This document shows, in pieces, positions 2,265 through 12,041 of a DNA stretch of 64,000 nucleotides. This DNA comes from Spartobacteria bacterium LR76 (GTDB lineage Bacteria > Verrucomicrobiota > Verrucomicrobiia > Chthoniobacterales > Terrimicrobiaceae). The position numbers and the translations under genes were made by a program. The stretch covers positions 62,001 through 126,000 of the forward strand of contig QAYZ01000012.1 of the NCBI GenBank assembly GCA_003054655.1, read 5' to 3'. The first letter of the stretch is position 1. Every line of letters begins with the position of its first letter. The notes beneath the pieces are model-generated. The model saw only the letters and a list, made by a program, of their open reading frames with translations. It ran no database searches and was not told the origin of the DNA.

Positions 2265-3341
2265 TTACCTGATATCGGCTTCAAAATCAACCCATCGCAC
2301 GAGTCCGGCGAGATTTTGTCGCCCCTCCTGATGCCAGGACCATGGGGGAAGCTGCATATGGCCAAGCGGGCAGATGCGTGAGGGGGCGAGCGGAGCGACG
2401 AGTTCCGCCACCTCGGGAAGGGACGGCCAGATGCCGACGGCGCCGAGCCAGCCGAGCACCGGCCCGAGCGCGGCGGACGGATCGCCCTCCGGCCAGGGCT
2501 TCACGTAGACGACACGGTTCAGGCAGGAACTCGCAAACCACGGGTCGTTTTCGTAGATCACGGTCCAGTCGAGCGAGTCCTCGCTTTCGTAAAGCTTCAC
2601 CCGCGCATCGCTAGCGGAGCGGAAGCGGTAATTCGCCCGCACATTGTGAATTTCCGCCGCCTCGGCCACGGTGACTGGCAGGGGCGGTTCCGTCGCGGCA
2701 AAGTCCCCCATGGCGCGGGCCAGTTCGGCGGCGAAGGCGGCGGCATCGCCCCGGACGTAAATATCGTGGGGCGAAAGGCAGCCCTTTTGGTTGAAAAGCG
2801 AGATGTCCCGAGCGGCGGCATCAGCCGCGCCGGGCGTCGGCGATGCGACCAGGCCCAGGCTGAAAAGATGACCGTGGGGTTCGAAACGCACGCCGGGACG
2901 CGCCTGCGAGCGGAAGTGCGCGATGGTTTCATCCGAGCCGAAGACAATCCACGCCTCCGCCTCGCGCAGCCATTCCGCGGGAAGCGTGGTGGAAATCGTG
3001 GCACGGTCACGGAGCCCGGCTGGAAGGAGGGAGAGAAACTCCCCGACCTCCGGCAGGCCTTCCGACGGGAGCTTCATGCGGTTCTGCGCGCCCAGCAGCA
3101 GGCCGCGAATGAGACTCTGGAGGGCGGCATGCGGCGTGTTGCCGCTCACGATGTGAAGCAGTGGAGAGAGGCAATACGCCCGGGCAAAGTTTGCCCCATA
3201 CGGGCGGAAGCCGTCGAGGATCTCCGCGTGGCCCAGCTCCAGGCGCACTACCTCGAGGAGGTCTTCGGCGGAGCAGGGGCCGAGGATGGGAAAATGCGAC
3301 GCCGCCCTGGCGAGGGCATCGGCTCGGGAGGCGGTATTCAT
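2265..3341 (-). CDS. LuxC-like acyl-CoA/acyl-protein reductase
   Basis: A 358-residue protein of the LuxC (acyl-CoA reductase, PF05893-type) family, which reduces activated fatty acyl groups to aldehyde with NADPH. Supporting residues are the N-terminal [11 protein letters not shown] segment (about 63-73) and [11 protein letters not shown] (about 183-192), with Cys188 as the likely acyl-thioester nucleophile. It overlaps the LuxE-like gene by 4 bases, so the two are translationally coupled. In luminous bacteria LuxC works with LuxE and LuxD to make aldehyde for luciferase. No luciferase is visible here, so a non-luminescent role such as making fatty aldehyde, alcohol or a modified lipid is inferred. 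It is shorter than the roughly 480-residue Vibrio LuxC. Confidence 0.8.
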
Positions 3342-4324
3342 CGGCTCAGGAGATCATCGGCGGCGCGGGAGCATCCGCGAGGCAGGGCGGAGGGATCGCG
3401 TCCCAGGAGGACGAAGCCCTCCTCATGGCGGACGGCGAGATCCTGGGTTTGCAGGACGCAGGAGGAGTCAATATTCGCCAGATCAAAGATGACCAGCACC
3501 CCGGTTTCGCCAACGCCAACCTCGCGGCCCGTTGAGGGGTCAATCACAAGGCCGCGCACCCACGAACCGCCGCGATGCGGGGCCTTGAGGCCGCGCGTGT
3601 AAAATTGCGACGACAGCTCGGTCATGCCGTATTCGTTCCAGACATCGTCGGCTTCCAGTCCAAGGTGCTTTTGAAAAAGCGCATAAAGCTCTTCCTTGGG
3701 CAGATTGCGCCGCGTGCCCTTGTAGCCGCCAGTTTCCATCGCGGCCGAACCAGCGGGGAGAGTCAATGCTCGGTCGCCGAGGAATTCGAAAAAGTCGAGG
3801 AATCCCAGCGCGGTGCCGAAGAGCACCAGCGGCTCCTCCGCGGCGGCCAGGGAGTCGGCGAGGCGCTCCCATTGGTTCCAGAAGAAATCCTCCGGCTGCA
3901 CGAGCCACCCGGCCATCGCGCTGAGCGAGGAGTGCGGAGTCTCCGTGGGAGGCGGGGCCAGCCCGATCACCCGATGACCGGGTATCCCGGCCCGACGCCA
4001 TCCGGCCATCGCGGCGGCGTGATAAACGTCGAGGGTGGCGAAATGATGCTGCCCATAGCCCTCACCGGTGGTGCCGCTGGTGCGAAAGGTGCGCACGGTT
4101 TCACTCTCCGGGAAGGTGGCGATGCGGCTCCAGCGGAACGCCCCGAGCGGCAGGGGTGGGATCTCTCGCCAGGTCGACGGGGCGGGAAACCCCTTGCAAT
4201 ACTCGTGGTACGGATGGCAGAGCTCGCGCTGACGGCGATGCACATTCACGAGCAGATCGGCAAAGTTGCCTTCGCCGTGCTCGATATAGCGGATGACTTG
4301 ATAATGGAGGTTTGGGTGTTCCAA
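3338..4324 (-). CDS. LuxE-like acyl-protein synthetase
   Basis: A 328-residue member of the LuxE (PF04443-type) branch of adenylate-forming enzymes. These activate a fatty acid as acyl-AMP and pass it to their own cysteine and on to LuxC. The adenylate motif RTSGTTGEGYGQ lies at about 81-92, with METGGYKGTRR and YGMTELSSQFY further on. It is the first gene of the minus-strand acyl cluster and overlaps the LuxC-like gene by 4 bases. It is divergent from the desaturase across about 120 bases that must hold both promoters. The exact substrate cannot be read from sequence. Confidence 0.82.
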   Translation of the reverse strand: MEHPNLHYQVIRYIEHGEGNFADLLVNVHRRQRELCHPYHEYCKGFPAPSTWREIPPLPLGAFRWSRIATFPESETVRTFRTSGTTGEGYGQHHFATLDVYHAAAMAGWRRAGIPGHRVIGLAPPPTETPHSSLSAMAGWLVQPEDFFWNQWERLADSLAAAEEPLVLFGTALGFLDFFEFLGDRALTLPAGSAAMETGGYKGTRRNLPKEELYALFQKHLGLEADDVWNEYGMTELSSQFYTRGLKAPHRGGSWVRGLVIDPSTGREVGVGETGVLVIFDLANIDSSCVLQTQDLAVRHEEGFVLLGRDPSALPRGCSRAADDLLSR

Positions 4325-4443: not shown

Positions 4444-5598
4444 ATGCTACGAATCCCTTGGGAAAAAGTGCGATGGGCAAACAGCCTGTTTCTCATCACG
4501 ACTTTTGTCACAACCATCACAGCGGTGCCTCTTTACATTATGCGCCATGGAGTGGATGCTTTCCAGTTTTGGTTGTTCTTTTTCTTCTTCATCGCCACCG
4601 GCTTGAGCATCACGCTCGGCTATCATCGGCTTTTTTCGCACCTGACTTTCCATGCTTCGTGGCCGGTCAAGGTCTTCACCCTGCTCTTCGGAGCGGCGGC
4701 GTTTGAGGGTTCGGCTCTCGGCTGGTCTGCGGATCACCGCCGCCACCACAAGTTCGTCGACCACGACGACGATCCATACGATATTTCCAAGGGCTTCTTC
4801 CATGCCCACATCGGCTGGCTGCTCTTCCGCACCGGGCCGGATACGCCGCTTACCTGGGTGCGCGACCTGCAAAAGGACAAGCTCGCCTGGTGGCAGCACC
4901 AGTTTTACGTCCCGCTGGCGTTCGGGGTCGGCTTCGGCCTTCCAGCGCTCATCGGTTACCTCTGGGGCGGCCCTACGGCGGCTCTCGGGGCCTTCCTCAT
5001 GGCAGGTGTGGCGCGCGTCGTCTTCGTGCATCACATGACGTTTTGCATCAACTCGCTCTGCCACTGGATCGGCGATCGGCCTTACTCGACGAACTGCACG
5101 GCACGCGACAGCTTCCTCATGGCTCTCTTCACCTTTGGCGAGGGGTACCATAATTTTCACCACGAGTTTCAGTACGACTACCGCAATGGCGTGAAGCCGT
5201 GGCAGTTTGACCCGACGAAATGGTCCATCTGGCTCCTGCACAAGCTCGGCCTCGTGCGCAATCTGCGCACCGTGCCGGAGGAGAAGATCCTCAAGGCCCA
5301 GATCGCCGAGCAGCAGCGCCGTATCGCTGCGGCGCTCGAGAATCACCCGACACCGCTCTCCGAGTCCCTGCAGACGATGCTGCACTCCGCCCAGCAGCAG
5401 ATGCACGACGCGCTGGCTCATTGGGAGCAGCGGCTGTCCGAGTACCGCGCCGCCAAGGAGCGCCGTCACGAGATTTCCCGCCGTCAGCGCCGCCAGCTCA
5501 AGCGCGAGCTCGCGCAGGCCTCGTCCCAGCTCCGTGAGGCGCTCGGTGAGTGGATGAGCGCGCATCGCGTCATCTTCGGCGGCACCGCTGCGGCTTAA
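4444..5598 (+). CDS. membrane fatty acid (acyl-CoA delta-9 type) desaturase
   Basis: An integral-membrane di-iron desaturase that introduces a double bond into an acyl chain. All three histidine boxes are present: HRLFSH (61-66), HRRHH (98-102) and HNFHH (236-240). Hydrophobic segments flank them (about 14-32, 40-59, 155-175 and 180-198). After the catalytic domain there is an unusual roughly 100-residue charged, Gln/Arg/Glu-rich helical tail (about 275-378) that looks like a coiled coil. It is divergent from the LuxE/LuxC/FadD cluster, which supports a shared lipid theme. Expression may be temperature- or membrane-responsive, as in other bacteria, but only the start-proximal hairpin hints at control. 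Confidence 0.92.
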   Translation: MLRIPWEKVRWANSLFLITTFVTTITAVPLYIMRHGVDAFQFWLFFFFFIATGLSITLGYHRLFSHLTFHASWPVKVFTLLFGAAAFEGSALGWSADHRRHHKFVDHDDDPYDISKGFFHAHIGWLLFRTGPDTPLTWVRDLQKDKLAWWQHQFYVPLAFGVGFGLPALIGYLWGGPTAALGAFLMAGVARVVFVHHMTFCINSLCHWIGDRPYSTNCTARDSFLMALFTFGEGYHNFHHEFQYDYRNGVKPWQFDPTKWSIWLLHKLGLVRNLRTVPEEKILKAQIAEQQRRIAAALENHPTPLSESLQTMLHSAQQQMHDALAHWEQRLSEYRAAKERRHEISRRQRRQLKRELAQASSQLREALGEWMSAHRVIFGGTAAA

Positions 5599-5640
5599 GG
5601 CTGCGGCCGAGTTTGAGGCACTCTTCATCGGGGTTTATGC

Positions 5641-5681
5641 CGGGAGGGTGCCTGGGGCCAAGGCTCCTCCCGTTCCGTTTT
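5641..5681 (+). terminator. intrinsic terminator of the desaturase gene
   Basis: A GC-rich stem CGGGAGGG/TCCTCCCG (5641-5648 with 5665-5672) continues past a bulge into GCCT/AGGC. It is followed by TTCCGTTTT and lies 40 bases after the desaturase stop codon. Confidence 0.65.
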
Positions 5682-6299
5682 ACGCCATCGGCCTCCTTCG
5701 TCCAGGGCGATGCGGTTTACTCGCCTTCTTTGGAGCGTCTTGCCGATCTCAAAGCCTGAATCCAGAGAAACTCCGGGATCCAGGCGAGGCTTCGCGGTCG
5801 ACCGCCGCGTCATTCTGCTCCAGCAGGCTTTCGCGGCGCAATCTGCCAAATACAATGTTGGTGGAGCGTGGCTCGCGGATCACTTCTTATTGAGTGTTCT
5901 TACGGCTGAACCGAGCGATGAATCGGGGTTCGGCGTCATCTCCGAACGATCTTTCTCCCAAAACGCGACAACGAGGTGGAACTCTTGCGTCACAAATTCT
6001 CGGGAGTTGGACGCAGAAAAAGCGGGACGTCATTCAGTCACCTGATGAGCCGCTGAGACCAGTCCGACACCCTGCGAGGCTGTCACGATGAGCGACTGTA
6101 AATCTATGAAGTCGAGGCCGTTCTCACTGGTGCGCATTGGCGGTGAGGGCGGTCCCCCCCGAAGTGGAGAGAAAAATGCTTCATCCGCTCTTCGTTCCAG
6201 CCCCTTAAAAAATTCCCAAGAAATTCCAAAATAAGGCTTGCTTCCATTGTGCGTATCAATAGCTTCTTCCCTCCCGCACACAGACGGGGGAATGAGTAG
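5682..6299. other. gene-poor region upstream of the ribosomal operon
   Basis: About 620 bases with no convincing coding sequence, tRNA or repeat. The short open frames here lack family resemblance or ribosome-binding sites. The local AT-rich patch near 6205-6235 probably contains the S10 promoter, but I cannot place -35 and -10 boxes with confidence. Confidence 0.5.
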
Positions 6300-6321
6300 A
6301 GCACCTCAGAGTGCTTTTTTT
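6300..6321 (+). terminator. orphan intrinsic terminator / S10 leader attenuator
   Basis: AGCAC, a six-base loop, then GTGCT followed by a run of seven T. It lies about 170 bases upstream of rpsJ and has no protein gene directly before it. It would end either a small RNA from the preceding region or an attenuated S10-operon leader. Confidence 0.6.
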
Positions 6322-6488
6322 GTCCCCTGATGCCTTCCGAGGTTGTGTGGGCCTAACCAAACAATGCAAACGCGCGTCCATATCGAAAAGATGATGTCCT
6401 GCTGGGCCGGACTGCGCGTGCATCGACGAAAACGAATTTCCTAACCATCTAACCAAGGGGACCGCCCTCAACTGTTCTTTATCAGATT

Positions 6489-6806
6489 ATGTCAGCTCCT
6501 GCCGGTCAACGCATCCGCATCCGCCTCAAGGCGTTTGATTATCGAATCCTGGACGCCTCGGCGGCCGAAATCGTCGAGACAGCCAAGCGCACGGGCTCGA
6601 AGGTGACAGGCCCCATTCCGCTCCCGACCCGGATCGAGAAGTTCACTGTCAACCGCTCCCCCCACGTGGACAAGAAGTCCATGGATCAATTTGAGATCCG
6701 CACGCACAAGCGCCTGCTGGATATCGTCGAACCCACCGCCAAGACCGTGGACGAGCTGCGCAAGCTCAATCTCCCGGCCGGCGTTGATATCACCATCAAA
6801 ATCTGA
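6489..6806 (+). CDS. rpsJ: 30S ribosomal protein S10
   Basis: A 105-residue S10 of the 30S head; in other bacteria (NusE) it also bridges ribosome and transcription complex through NusB/NusG. Recognised by [35 protein letters not shown] and the C-terminal [11 protein letters not shown]. It opens the long ribosomal block. No Shine-Dalgarno is evident before the ATG. The leader holds a terminator-like hairpin at 6300-6321 that may regulate the whole operon. The usual upstream partners (rpsL, rpsG, fusA, tuf) are absent here. Confidence 0.98.
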
Positions 6807-6814
6807 TCGCCGCC

Positions 6815-7462
6815 ATGAGCATTGGACTTTTAGGAAAAAAACTCGGGATGACCCGCGTCTATGACGACAAGGGCCGCATCACCACCGCCACCGTCATCGA
6901 AGCTGGTGGCAACCGCATCCTCCAGGTGAAGAACACGGAGAAGGACGGTTACAACGCCATCCAGGTCGGCTTCGGCGACCAGAAGGCCCAGCGCGTCAGC
7001 AAGGCGCAGACCGGGCACTTCGCCAAGTCTTCCTCCACCGCGAAGAAGTTCATTCGCGAATTTCGCCTCGCTGAAGGTGAGACCGCTCCGGAGAGCGTCG
7101 ATCTCGGCCTCGGCACCTTTGAGGTTGGACAGTGGGTCGACGTCATCGGCCAGTCCAAGGGCAAAGGCTTCCAGGGCGTCGTCAAGAAGCACAATTTCGC
7201 CGGACAGCCCGCGAGTCACGGTTCCATGATGCATCGTCGTAACGGTGCCATCGGCAACCGCTCCACTCCCGGTCGTGTTTGGAAGAACATGGGCATGCCT
7301 GGTCACATGGGTGACGAGCGTGTCACGGTTCAGAACCTGCGAGTCCTGCAGGTCCGCGAGGAAGACGGTGTCATCCTCGTGAGCGGCGCGATTCCCGGAG
7401 CCAAGGGCACGAATGTCATCGTGCGCCCGGCCAAGAAAAAGAAAGCCCCAGCCAAGAGCTAA
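6815..7462 (+). CDS. rplC: 50S ribosomal protein L3
   Basis: A 215-residue L3, an early assembly protein that reaches toward the peptidyl transferase centre. Typical segments are [17 protein letters not shown] at the start and [40 protein letters not shown] in the loop region. It starts 8 bases after rpsJ in the context gccgccATG with no Shine-Dalgarno, and ends with a short Lys-rich tail. Confidence 0.98.
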
Positions 7463-7465
7463 GCC

Positions 7466-8080
7466 ATGAGCGCCATTGTATTTACTGCTGAAGAGGCCAA
7501 GAAGGCCAATATCGAGCTCATCACCGAAGAGGCAAAGGGCCGCCAGGCCGTCCACGATGTCGTGGTCGCCATGCGCGCCAACCGCCGTCGCGGTACTGCC
7601 AGCACCAAGACCAAGGCCGACGTCGCCCTGAGCGGCGCGAAGCCCTGGCGCCAAAAGGGAACCGGACGCGCCCGCGCCGGTTACAAGTCCTCCCCCGTGT
7701 GGGTGGGCGGTGGTGTTGCCTTCGGCCCGCATCCCCGCGATTACTCGAAGAAGACCCCCAAGAAGGTGAAGGTCCTCGCCTTCCGCAAGGCTCTCAGCGA
7801 GCGCATCCTCGCCGGCGACGTGCTGGTGACCGACGCTTTCGTTGTCGCCGAGCCGAAGACCAAGCAGTTCCTCGCCCTCGTGGCTGAAAATGCCAAGGAC
7901 GCCCGCAAGACGCTCGTCATTGGCAACGGCTTCGACGAAAAGACCTTCCTCGCGGCCCGCAACGTCCGCACCGCCCAGTTGGTTCGCGCCCTGGACGTCA
8001 ATACCGAGCAGCTCCTCGCCTTCGACAAGATCATCGTGACGAAGGAAGCGCTCACCACCCTCTCCGAAAGGCTCGCGTAA
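7466..8080 (+). CDS. rplD: 50S ribosomal protein L4
   Basis: A 204-residue L4, which lines the peptide exit tunnel. The hallmark loop [19 protein letters not shown] followed by [10 protein letters not shown] and [13 protein letters not shown] is clear. E. coli L4 autoregulates its S10 operon through the leader; whether that holds here is unknown. It starts 3 bases after rplC (context aagccATG), and its TAA overlaps the rplW ATG by one base. Confidence 0.98.
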
Positions 8081-8364
8081 TGAACGAACCCTTTGACCAT
8101 CTGCAAACGGTCCTCCTGACCGAGAAGGCGACCCTGCTTTCCGAAAAGGCGAACCAGTACGTGTTCCGCGTCGCTCCCCGGGCCAACAAGCTCGATATCA
8201 AGCGTGCGGTGGAAGTCCTCTTCAAAAAGACGGTTGTCAACGTCAATACCGCGAACTTCGCCGGTAAGAAGAAGCGCGAGCGCACTGCCAGCTTTGGCCG
8301 CCGCGCCAACTGGAAGAAGGCGATCGTAACCCTCAAGGAGGGCGAGAAGCTCGACCTCGTCTAA
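8080..8364 (+). CDS. rplW: 50S ribosomal protein L23
   Basis: A 94-residue L23 at the tunnel exit, the docking site for trigger factor and SRP. Recognised by [41 protein letters not shown] and [16 protein letters not shown]. The ATG overlaps the rplD stop in a TAATG arrangement, so coupling is likely. Confidence 0.97.
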
Positions 8365-8378
8365 GGAGACACACAGCC

Positions 8379-9224
8379 ATGGCACTCAAGACCTTTCGAC
8401 CCCTTACGCCCGCGAGCCGCTTCAAGGCGCTCCCGGACTTTGCCGAGATCACGAAGGATACCCCGGAGAAGTCTCTCCTGGAGCCCCTGAAGAAATCCGG
8501 CGGACGCAACAACAACGGCCGCATGACCTCGCGTCATCGCGGCGGCGGACACAAGCGCAAATACCGCGTGATCGATTTCAAGCGCAAAAAGCGCGACATC
8601 ATCGCCGACGTGATCGCGATCGAGTACGATCCGAACCGCTCCGCCCGCATCGCCCTCCTTCAGTACGCGGATGGCGAGAAAGCCTACATCCTCGCTCCCG
8701 TCGGCCTCGCGGTCGGCACCAAGGTGAGCGCTGGCGAAAAGGCAGATCCGGCGGTCGGCAATGCGCTCCCGCTCCGTGCGATCCCGCTCGGTACGGCCAT
8801 TCACAACGTTGAGATCACCCCGGGCCGCGGTGCCCAGATGATCCGCAGCGCCGGTGCCCAGGCCGTCCTCGCCAACCGCGAGGCGGGCTTCGCCCTCATC
8901 AAGCTGGCCTCCGGTGAGATCCGCAAGATCAACGATGACTGCTACGCCACGATCGGGCAGGTCGGCAACACCGACCACATGAACGTGTCGAGCGGCAAGG
9001 CTGGCCGCTCCCGTTGGCTCGGTCGCCGTCCGCATGTCCGCGGCATGGTCATGAACCCCGTCGATCACCCCATGGGTGGCGGCCAGGGCAAGAGCAAGGG
9101 CGGTGGCGGACGTCACCATCCTGTCAGCCCCTGGGGCCAGTTGGCCAAGGGCTTCAAGACCCGTCGCAAGCACAAGAACTCCGACCGCTTCATCGTCCAG
9201 CGGCGCAAAGCTAAAGCTAAGTAA
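8379..9224 (+). CDS. rplB: 50S ribosomal protein L2
   Basis: A 281-residue L2, needed for subunit association and the peptidyl transferase region. Typical motifs are [20 protein letters not shown] near the N-terminus and [20 protein letters not shown] near the C-terminus. The conserved first His of the DHPxGG motif is present, while the position usually His after Pro is Met here. A Shine-Dalgarno (AAGGAG) lies about 11 bases before the ATG, which is unusual in this operon. Confidence 0.98.
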
Positions 9225-9226
9225 CC

Positions 9227-9505
9227 ATGGCACGTTCGCTCAAAAAAGGCCCCTACGTGGAGTGGAAGCTCCTCGATAAAATCGACCGGATGAATGACTC
9301 CGGCGCCAAAAAGCCGATCAAGACCTGGTCGCGGCGCAGCACGGTGACCCCCGACTTTGTGGGCCACACCTTCAACGTGCACAACGGCAAGACCTTCATC
9401 CCTGTGTTCGTCACCGAAAACATGGTCGGACACAAGCTGGGTGAGTTCTCCCCGACCCGAATCTTTAAGAAACACGGTTCTCACACCGCTAAAGTGACCA
9501 AGTAA
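9227..9505 (+). CDS. rpsS: 30S ribosomal protein S19
   Basis: A 92-residue S19 of the 30S head. Recognised by [37 protein letters not shown] and [16 protein letters not shown]. It starts 2 bases after rplB in a taaccATG context. In most bacteria rplV follows directly; here an unrelated exported-protein gene begins 2 bases after the rpsS stop. Confidence 0.98.
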
Positions 9506-9507
9506 CA

Positions 9508-10317
9508 ATGAGACTCGCTGCGATAGCGGCGGGACTTATCGCTCTCCTCCTGGCCGTAAGGTCGGAGGCACAGAGCAGCCGATCTTTGACAGACTCTGAT
9601 AGTGGTACTCTCCTCGCGCAGGGGGTCACGATAACCGTGCCCACGAGCGAAGAGAACAGCTCCAATGATATTGGCGACGAAAGCCTGCAGGAGAAAGTGA
9701 TCCTGCTGCGATCGAGCGTCAAATCGCTGACGGACAGCCTGGCCATCGCAAATGCGGAGGCCGAGATGTTCAAGCGCCAGTCTGCCGATCTCGCAATGAA
9801 ACTCGAGGCCCTGGGTGTCCCAGGTGCCGAAAAGGATCAAAGCAAAGTCGAGCAGCGCCTGCTTTCCGCTGTCCGCGACCTCCGATTGCTCAAGCAGCAA
9901 AACGAAGACGCGGTCAACCAGTTGGTGAGACTGACCGAAGCCGTACAGGTGCTCCTGAAAAGCACCGAACAGATCGACCCGCAGATCCGCATGACGGTGG
10001 AGACCGAATTGCGCAAGACCAACGAAGTGCTCGGCACTCCGGCGGCGGTGAAAGCCAGTGCGGTCGAAGCCACCCTCAACGATGGAATGGTCCTGGATGT
10101 GAAAGAGGATCTTTCGCTCATCGTCGCCAACATCGGCGAAAAACAGGGGGTGAAAATCGGCATGCCCTTCCAGATCTGGAGGGACAACAAGGTGGTGGGC
10201 GAGGTGCGCGTCATCGACGTACGCGATCGCATCAGTGGAGCAATCATTCAGAGTCTCGCATCGGAGAAAGAGCCGATCAAAACCGGCGACCGCCTCAAGG
10301 TGGACGCCCGGCAGTAG
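9508..10317 (+). CDS. exported coiled-coil protein inserted in the S10 operon
   Basis: A 269-residue protein I do not recognise as a named family. It has an N-terminal signal peptide (about 1-21, hydrophobic AAIAAGLIALLLAV then SEA/QS cleavage) and a charged linker. A predicted coiled coil spans about 58-165. The C-terminal domain (about 195-268, pattern VANIGEKQGVKIGMPFQIW, VGEVRVIDV, KTGDRLKV) has the look of small beta-barrel domains seen at the end of some envelope and flagellar accessory proteins. The gene sits 2 bases after rpsS and 30 bases before rplV in the same direction, so it is almost certainly co-transcribed with ribosomal genes. Its start context (taacaATG) matches that of rplV. 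It is probably periplasmic; the function is unknown. Confidence 0.88.
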   Translation: MRLAAIAAGLIALLLAVRSEAQSSRSLTDSDSGTLLAQGVTITVPTSEENSSNDIGDESLQEKVILLRSSVKSLTDSLAIANAEAEMFKRQSADLAMKLEALGVPGAEKDQSKVEQRLLSAVRDLRLLKQQNEDAVNQLVRLTEAVQVLLKSTEQIDPQIRMTVETELRKTNEVLGTPAAVKASAVEATLNDGMVLDVKEDLSLIVANIGEKQGVKIGMPFQIWRDNKVVGEVRVIDVRDRISGAIIQSLASEKEPIKTGDRLKVDARQ

Positions 10318-10347
10318 ACGGCGAAAAACCAAATAACTAAGACAACA

Positions 10348-10830
10348 ATGCAGGTTAAATCGATCTACCGCAATGCGCGGATCTCGGCCTTCAAGGCTCG
10401 CGAGGTCACGCGGGAAATTCAGGGTCTTCCGGCTACGGACGCCCTGGACTTGCTCCGCTTTGTGCCCAAGAAGGCAGCCGAGCTTATCTTCAAGACGCTC
10501 TCGAGCGCGATTGCGAACGCCGAGAACAATAACAACCTCAATGTTGCCAATCTGGTCGTCCAGGAAGCCGTTGTGGGCGAAGGGCCGACCTTCAAGCGTT
10601 TCCAGCCCAAGGCCCGCGGCAGCGCAGGCCCGATCCGCAAGCGCACGAGCCACATCCGCATCGTTCTGACCGACGAGGTGGAGATCAAGCGCCGCGAGGA
10701 CAAGGCTGCGAAAAAATCCAAGAAACCCGCCGCCAAAAAGACCGGCGCCAAGAAGACCACTGCCGCCGCAAAATCGGCTGCTACCGAGACCGCCGCTCCC
10801 GAGACGACGGCCACCGAAACCAAGGAATAA
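10348..10830 (+). CDS. rplV: 50S ribosomal protein L22 with basic C-terminal tail
   Basis: L22 contacts all 23S domains and the exit tunnel. The core spans about residues 1-113 ([50 protein letters not shown]). After it comes a roughly 45-residue Lys/Ala/Thr-rich low-complexity tail ([15 protein letters not shown] then acidic [14 protein letters not shown]) that is absent from typical 110-residue L22. It follows the inserted exported-protein gene rather than rpsS. Confidence 0.97.
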
Positions 10831-10832
10831 TC

Positions 10833-11597
10833 ATGGGACAGAAAGTCAATCCAATCGGCTTCCGCCTTCCGATCAGCCGCGACTGGTCGTCGCGCTGGTA
10901 CGCCTCGCGCAAGGATTTCGCCGACTACCTCTTTGCGGACGGCAAGATCCGTGAGTTCCTCAAGAAGAAGCTCCGTCAGGCCGCTGTGGCCCGCATCGTC
11001 ATCGAACGCGCCTGGAACAGCCTGCGCGTGACCATTCACACCGCCCGCCCGGGTGTGGTCATCGGCCGCAAGGGTTCCGAGATCGAGAAGATGACCGAGG
11101 AGATTTCCCGTCTCGCCGGTGGCAAGCAGGTGAAGATCGACATCGTCGAGATCAAGACGCCCGACACCGACGCTCAGCTCGTCGCGGAGAACGTCGCCTC
11201 GCAGCTCGAGCGCCGCATTTCCTTCCGCCGCGCCATGAAGCGCGCCGTGCAGCTCGCCATGGAACAGGGCGCTCTCGGCATCAAGATCCGCTGCTCCGGC
11301 CGCCTCGGCGGTGCGGAAATCGCCCGTACCGAGTGGTACCGCGAAGGCAAGATCCCGCTTCATACCATGCGCCAGCCGATCGACTACGGCTTCACCGAAG
11401 CCAACACGATCGCCGGCAAGATCGGCATCAAATGCTGGGTCTGCAAAAAGCCGGATCGCCCGGAAGACCAGCAGCAGGACGGCCAGGCCGACCAGCCGGC
11501 TCCCCGCCGCGAGCGTGGACCCCGCGGTCGTCGTAATAACAACGACTCTGCGCCCGCCGCCCCGGCCCCTGCTCAGAACGCACCCGCCAACGCTTAA
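10833..11597 (+). CDS. rpsC: 30S ribosomal protein S3
   Basis: S3 forms part of the mRNA entry channel. It starts [22 protein letters not shown] and contains the KH-domain motif [13 protein letters not shown] and the C-terminal [21 protein letters not shown] signature. Unlike the usual 210-230 residue protein it carries a roughly 45-residue Gln/Pro/Arg/Ala-rich tail (about 210-254). It starts 2 bases after rplV. Confidence 0.98.
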
Positions 11598-11618
11598 TTT
11601 TTAGGAGGATAGAGAGCC

Positions 11619-12041
11619 ATGCCATTGATGCCCAAACGCGTGAAGTATCGCAAAACCCAGCGCGGAAGCCGCTCGGGGAACGCCTCACGTACGCTCAAAA
11701 TTGACTTCGGCGAATTCGGGTTGCAAACCCTCGAGCGCGCCTGGATCACAAACACCCAGATCGAAGCCGCCCGTGTTGCCATGACCCGCAACATGAAGCG
11801 TAAAGGAAAGCTCTGGATCCGTATTTTCCCCGACAAGTCCGTCACCGCCCGCCCGCCGGAAACCCGAATGGGTAAAGGTAAGGGCCAGCCCGAGTACTGG
11901 GTGGCCGTTGTCCGTCCGGGCAACGTGCTGTTCGAACTCGACGGCGTGCCGGAATCCGTCGCCCGCGAGTCCCTGCGTCTCGCCGCCAACAAGCTGCCCG
12001 TGCGTACGCGCTTCGTCGCCCGCCACCACGCTGTCAAATAA
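11619..12041 (+). CDS. rplP: 50S ribosomal protein L16
   Basis: A 140-residue L16 that helps position A-site tRNA. It has [51 protein letters not shown] and [18 protein letters not shown] strong Shine-Dalgarno (TAGGAGG) precedes it at about 11602-11608, one of the few in the operon. An in-frame ATG three codons later would also give a normal L16. Confidence 0.98.

Follow-up and report, generated by a model that had tools for sequence, protein, structure and literature searches.

A gene for an exported coiled-coil and beta-domain protein is kept directly upstream of rplV in the ribosomal protein operon of many Verrucomicrobiota

The window analysed in this study, a stretch of 64,000 nucleotides from contig QAYZ01000012.1 of Spartobacteria bacterium LR76, carries on its plus strand a run of S10-spc genes that begins with rpsJ at position 6489 and continues through rplC, rplD, rplW, rplB, rpsS, rplV and rpsC to secY, adk, map and infA. 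This order is near-canonical apart from an additional gene, here termed X, which is embedded between rpsS and rplV, a gene pair that ranks among the most stable ones in bacteria:

9227-9505, plus strand: rpsS (ribosomal protein S19, Pfam PF00203), the left neighbour of X, ending 2 nucleotides ahead of it
9508-10317, plus strand: X, an exported coiled-coil and beta-domain protein of an unnamed family, recognised by its open reading frame, its translation, its co-located homologues and purifying selection
10348-10830, plus strand: rplV (ribosomal protein L22, Pfam PF00237), the right neighbour of X, starting after a spacer of 30 nucleotides

X starts with ATG, spans 810 bases coding for 269 amino acids and is present in a single copy in its genome. 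Its placement within an otherwise regular S10 operon had been described in a first-pass annotation of the same DNA and is borne out by the reading frames, by the Pfam matches to S19 and L22 on both sides and by the gene order from rpsJ to infA. The same annotation had stated that the start context of X copies that of rplV, which is correct for this genome, where AACA precedes the ATG of both genes; the likeness is confined to these four bases and does not hold in relatives. A consensus scan of positions 5600-12000 did not reveal any promoter-like site, nor did such a scan detect a terminator-like site on the plus strand around X, and thus nothing was seen that would isolate X from the operon in the way expected for a gene with a promoter and a terminator of its own. 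Based on the spacing and the lack of terminators we infer that X is co-transcribed with its neighbours. In the loci of relatives, the median distances amount to 4 nucleotides between rpsS and X and 18 nucleotides between X and rplV. Elsewhere in the window (2265-4324, minus strand, and 4444-5598, plus strand), two minus-strand reading frames, which by eye resemble an acyl-CoA reductase of the LuxC type and an acyl-protein synthetase of the LuxE type, diverge from a gene that by eye resembles a fatty-acid desaturase.

The protein encoded by X consists of an N-terminal export signal, a helical region and a folded C-terminal domain, with the following features:

9508-9570, plus strand: signal-peptide-like N-terminus (residues 1-21, read by eye), with likely cleavage between SEA and Q
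9580-9594, plus strand: RSLTD motif just past the presumed cleavage site, from the alignment of members of the order
9673-10032, plus strand: helical coiled-coil region (residues 56-175), from the AlphaFold2 model
10084-10302, plus strand: six-stranded beta domain (residues 193-265) at the C-terminus, the constant part of the family, from the AlphaFold2 model and structure matches

The N-terminal segment reads MRLAAIAAGLIALLLAVRSEA, followed by Q, and does not contain a lipobox cysteine in the window member; according to hydropathy, a hydrophobic segment is found at this position in all members of the family whose start is resolved. While most forms of X have either a membrane anchor or an ordinary signal peptide, a lipobox-like LVAAC was noticed in the form from a distant family (f53; locus L157, 979-1488, minus strand), which may thus be a lipoprotein. 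The motif following the cleavage site takes the form [RS]S[LF][ST] and is conserved almost throughout the order, with S26 and L27 found in 90% or more of the alignment rows and the entire stretch missing from a single row (L021). In the AlphaFold2 model (mean pLDDT 75, about 90 for the C-terminal domain), helices at residues 56-101, 111-151 and 158-175 precede a confidently predicted beta domain at 193-265, so that the signal peptide, the coiled coil and the C-terminal beta-type domain proposed in the first-pass annotation are all recovered. The coil varies in length between lineages, from being absent in the short forms of several families to more than 200 residues. The beta domain contains the residues that are invariant in the alignment of the order (G210, G214, V215, G218, V238, R239, G244, Q248, G260, D261 and L263), and a separately modelled short form displays the same order of strands. 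The window protein matches the family profile with 294 bits (E 7e-89) and combines the three features by which we define the family, namely an N-terminal export signal or anchor in hydropathy, a C-terminal profile match and a gene located directly upstream of rplV.

Neither X nor its distant members match any entry of Pfam or NCBIfam above cut-off, PHROGs contains only a coiled-coil match of unknown function, and a search of solved structures by sequence identified only coiled-coil or chance matches. In structure comparison, the best solved match of the beta domain is the C-terminal domain of FlgT (3w1e and 8z5n; Z 11.4, rmsd 2.0 over 75 residues), just ahead of the N-terminal barrels of F1-ATPases (Z about 10), and the MreC structures 2j5u and 7eft are among the top Foldseek matches. 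FlgT and MreC appear again among the matches of the short form, whose best Foldseek match, alanine racemase, is taken as a generic barrel. The modelled domain thus belongs to the kind of fold that is shared by the C-terminal part of FlgT, MreC and F1 barrels, which says little about function since, as the scores of the F1-ATPases illustrate, it is generic. For the same reason, the fold of the FlgT C-terminus, although present in X, is weak evidence of membership in that family. FlgT, a component of the flagellar H-ring (PF16538), is like X an exported protein whose C-terminal beta domain superposes on that of X, but the alignment covers no more than about 75 residues of FlgT chains that are 352-356 residues long, a long coiled coil is missing from FlgT and the gene for X resides in a ribosomal operon. 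In sequence, the resemblance is restricted to a weak match of 26 residues (205-230) which, with 17.5 bits, does not reach the curated cut-off of 27 bits, and we thus do not regard X as FlgT. The family TIGR04211 (SH3 domain and anchor) is similar as an idea in its combination of coil, beta domain and anchor, but relatives of X show only weak coiled-coil matches far below cut-off and X itself shows none.

A parallel in architecture is offered by the rod shape-determining protein MreC (PF04085), where an N-terminal membrane segment, a coiled coil and a C-terminal barrel follow each other in the same order as in X. Together with the Foldseek matches to MreC and a weak NCBIfam MreC match of one member (L148, 16.7 bits), this parallel raises the question whether X could be a second elongation factor of the MreC kind, acting directly with MreB, MreD and the cell-wall synthases. 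We consider this improbable, as X contains one barrel compared to the two found in MreC, does not match PF04085 up to an E value of 1 (curated cut-off 28 bits), exists in short forms without a coil, is flanked by rpsS and rplV instead of mreB and mreD and, in a comparison by hhalign, is related to the MreC of its own genome with a probability of only 0.7%. This true MreC is encoded elsewhere (G000:C10:219264-219716), adjoining an mreB-like gene. Still less probable, in our estimate, is a role as periplasmic chaperone of the Skp/OmpH type whose supply would keep pace with translation and secretion. The signal peptide, the long helices and the presence of secY in the same run of genes would suit such a chaperone, as would a weak OmpH match of one distant member (15.2 bits), but the window protein does not match OmpH (PF03938), its domain order is unlike that of Skp, and forms devoid of helices exist.

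Among relatives, X is anything but an isolated occurrence. A match was found in 47 of 58 genomes, and its absence in three of those counted without it (G046, G049 and G052) is uninformative because rpsS and rplV are missing from these assemblies too. S19 is encoded directly upstream in all 30 loci fetched from these relatives and L22 downstream in 29, with the contig ending in the last one. A scan of GTDB genome contigs provided 80 loci (L031-L110), which partly repeat the genomes of the 58 relatives and are not all independent; all are located on records named Verrucomicrobia, Spartobacteria, Chthoniobacterales or near relatives. When these are combined with 29 loci of a phylum search into a set that includes other families of the class (L114-L139), the order S19-X-L22 is found in 107 of 109 cases, the two others stopping at a contig edge. 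Wherever the contig of a fetched locus includes both flanks of X, which is the case for more than 130 loci from Chthoniobacterales and further orders of its class, X is found between rpsS and rplV. The possibility that the gene might occur only in this genome is thus contradicted by homologues in relatives, in the phylum search and in the even sample described below, and the scan for synteny places it at the same position across order and class.

So that cases would not be hand-picked, 59 genomes of Verrucomicrobiota with a completeness of at least 90% were drawn evenly, rplV was located in each and the region preceding it was searched with the profile of the family. X is found within about 100 nucleotides upstream of rplV in 32 of these genomes, 18 times in the arrangement rpsS-X-rplV and 14 times leading the rplV half of a split operon, and in at least one genome of 12 of the 20 families. 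It is absent in the other 27 and consequently not universally needed. Genomes without a strong match were inspected via their rpsS locus. In several families belonging to the class of LR76 the gap carries a secreted protein of 110-140 residues, which corresponds to the C-terminal domain only, and in more distant families it is filled by longer forms that have a membrane segment at the N-terminus (L146, L148, L151, L157, L180, L181 and L183, and further L184, L194, L195, L202 and L203). In several families the break in the S10 operon falls precisely behind rpsS (L186-L190, L192, L193, L196, L197, L199-L201, L204 and L206-L208; L209-L225), and two transcription units seem to meet at the rpsS/rplV junction. 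In gaps of 105-110 bp without X (L198, L264 and L268) we noticed promoter-like boxes by eye, such as TTGGAA...TATAGT before rplV in L198, which suggests that a second promoter may be located at this junction. Among genomes with a split operon, a homologue of X lies directly before rplV and heads the rplV-rpsC-rplP run in 13 of 17 cases, identifying rplV, rather than rpsS, as its conserved partner.

These features bear on the question why X is found at this site. The proposal of the first-pass annotation that a lineage-specific factor was captured by a strong promoter proved too weak, since X is distributed phylum-wide, is inherited with the ribosomal proteins and stays with rplV where the operon breaks. 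The main rival of the explanation that we favour is that X encodes an envelope protein functionally unrelated to the ribosome. Its gene would have entered, long ago, an operon with strong and constitutive transcription and would stay there since moving it would break this operon. We regard this as possible, although on the unlikely side. It would account for the fact that the junction is a weak point in the phylum, being split, empty or filled depending on the family, and that X is traceless in many families, where rpsS and rplV are linked at a distance of mostly 15-131 bp and no degenerate remnants were found in the gaps tested. It does not readily explain why X in most operon splits goes with rplV, and not away from the ribosomal genes, and why the linkage has outlasted the divergence of several classes. 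Two reduced genomes of 0.9 Mb (L140, equivalent to G031, and L231, equivalent to G040) do not contain X and have gaps of 151 and 316 bp without recognisable remnant. Larger members of their genus carry the gene (L015 and L018), which the reduced ones have lost, and this loss fits better with a role in the envelope than with a ribosomal one.

The history of X parallels that of its neighbours. Pairwise distances of its C-terminal domain track the distances of L2, S3 and L22 (Mantel r 0.90, 0.91 and 0.89, respectively), compared to a maximum of about 0.2 in permutations, and we conclude that the gene was inherited with the ribosomal genes, mostly vertically, instead of being shuffled between lineages. 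The profiles of long and short forms are related with an hhalign probability of 97.7 (E 1.7e-12 over 69 columns) and those of the long form and the form found in split operons with an E value of 1.7e-9. In a tree of the domain, the proteins from split operons are placed closer to paralogues than other forms of X are, without firm support, and their orthology rests mainly on the location before rplV, so that orthology over the whole phylum is based in part on position. The paralogues constitute a family encoded elsewhere in genomes of the phylum, including that of LR76, whose members have the C-terminal beta domain in common with X and combine it with a transmembrane segment and a long coil:

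2320-3150 of locus L168, minus strand: paralogue, with others in L169, L170 and L171-L177
1459-2241 of locus L226 (G000:C11), plus strand: paralogue in the own genome

In architecture and beta domain these proteins are like X (E 1e-24 to 1e-37 in iterated profile searches), but their genes do not adjoin rplV and they form a group of their own in the domain tree, whose support of 83 is not conclusive. The one tested does not match any family of Pfam or NCBIfam over cut-off. Secondary profile matches elsewhere in the genomes had been considered as MreC, a reading that was rejected in favour of this paralogue family. Its domain carries the signature 'GRILAVNxAWNFVVLxxGDKxGV...PGD', tandem pairs are seen in L176 and L177, and in the own genome the paralogue is located near a gene resembling an LPS heptosyltransferase.

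The codons of X are under purifying selection. Among three congeners (G000, G001 and G002), dN/dS amounts to about 0.10-0.14 for the whole gene, 0.02-0.04 for the coil and at most 0.08 for the C-terminal domain; the corresponding values of L22 and S3 against G002 are artefacts of indels and were ignored. A different pattern is confined to the first 55 codons (window positions 9508-9672), where pairs of congeners show 0-1 synonymous differences despite the presence of non-synonymous ones, while the remainder of the gene is normal, and it is possible that this scarcity reflects either a constraint at the level of RNA or a small-sample effect. The pattern would suit a role of X in cis, where its translation or its mRNA would regulate the rplV half of the operon, as leader, by an arrest peptide or by anchoring polysomes at the membrane. 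L22 lines the exit tunnel of the ribosome at the site where arrest peptides act, and X, where present, is directly upstream of its gene. We nevertheless consider a role in cis very improbable, because selection acts on a folded protein: the strongest constraint at the protein level is found on the coil and the folded C-terminal domain, whereas the last residues differ between lineages, the length of the coil varies freely, and a search of Rfam found no element.

In its codon adaptation to ribosomal genes, X (0.49) is the lowest in the operon, below secY (0.56) and the ribosomal proteins (0.62-0.78), and it is also lowest in 46 of 107 related loci, with a mean difference of -0.107 from the ribosomal mean. 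An output equal to that of ribosomal proteins is thus not implied, and X probably shares the operon but not their abundance. Codon use that is not ribosomal-like would also be expected of an envelope protein that had merely gained a place of strong expression.

In the explanation that we favour, and to which we would assign an even chance, X encodes an ancient scaffold or anchor protein of the envelope whose synthesis is tied to that of ribosomal proteins. The gene has been kept directly upstream of rplV over much of the phylum, and its product, exported by or anchored through its N-terminus, would display the beta domain in the envelope, usually on top of a coiled-coil stalk. With a construction resembling that of MreC or of the C-terminal part of FlgT, it might oligomerise via its coil and act as a scaffold or adaptor with partners docking on the beta domain. 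If transcribed with the S10-spc genes, which include secY, its supply would follow ribosome synthesis and therefore growth rate, and this coupling could have been the selective reason for its position. The suggestion of the first-pass annotation that envelope growth may be tied to ribosome synthesis agrees with the fold, with the signal for export and with a conserved linkage that looks like an ancient, hard-wired tie between the making of ribosomes and the building of the envelope. Against the scaffold role stands the absence of the coil, its main element, in several families, and the low codon adaptation speaks against an output at the ribosomal level. A stronger version of this coupling, in which X would be a dedicated device, appears rather unlikely to us. 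Being exported and translated from the mRNA of the ribosomal proteins, X would in that case scale with ribosome synthesis either the capacity for envelope building or the recruitment of this mRNA to the membrane.

Whereas proteins with this kind of architecture are known, the fixed location of the gene in a ribosomal operon across a phylum appears to be undescribed, as we found no account of an insertion of X between rpsS and rplV in the open-licence literature. The family, at present a widespread hypothetical protein in many free-living Verrucomicrobiota, would gain a name and a lead to its function. For Verrucomicrobium spinosum, one publication (PMC12283558) presents a transposon-essentiality data set and targeted mutagenesis, and the essentiality data should show whether the orthologue of X is required. 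Since X follows rplV at operon breaks, its family offers a natural test of the way in which cells adjust the growth of their envelope to the production of ribosomes and, should it indeed act as a growth-coupling device, it would reveal a hard-wired coupling of ribosome and envelope that has existed since early in a bacterial phylum.
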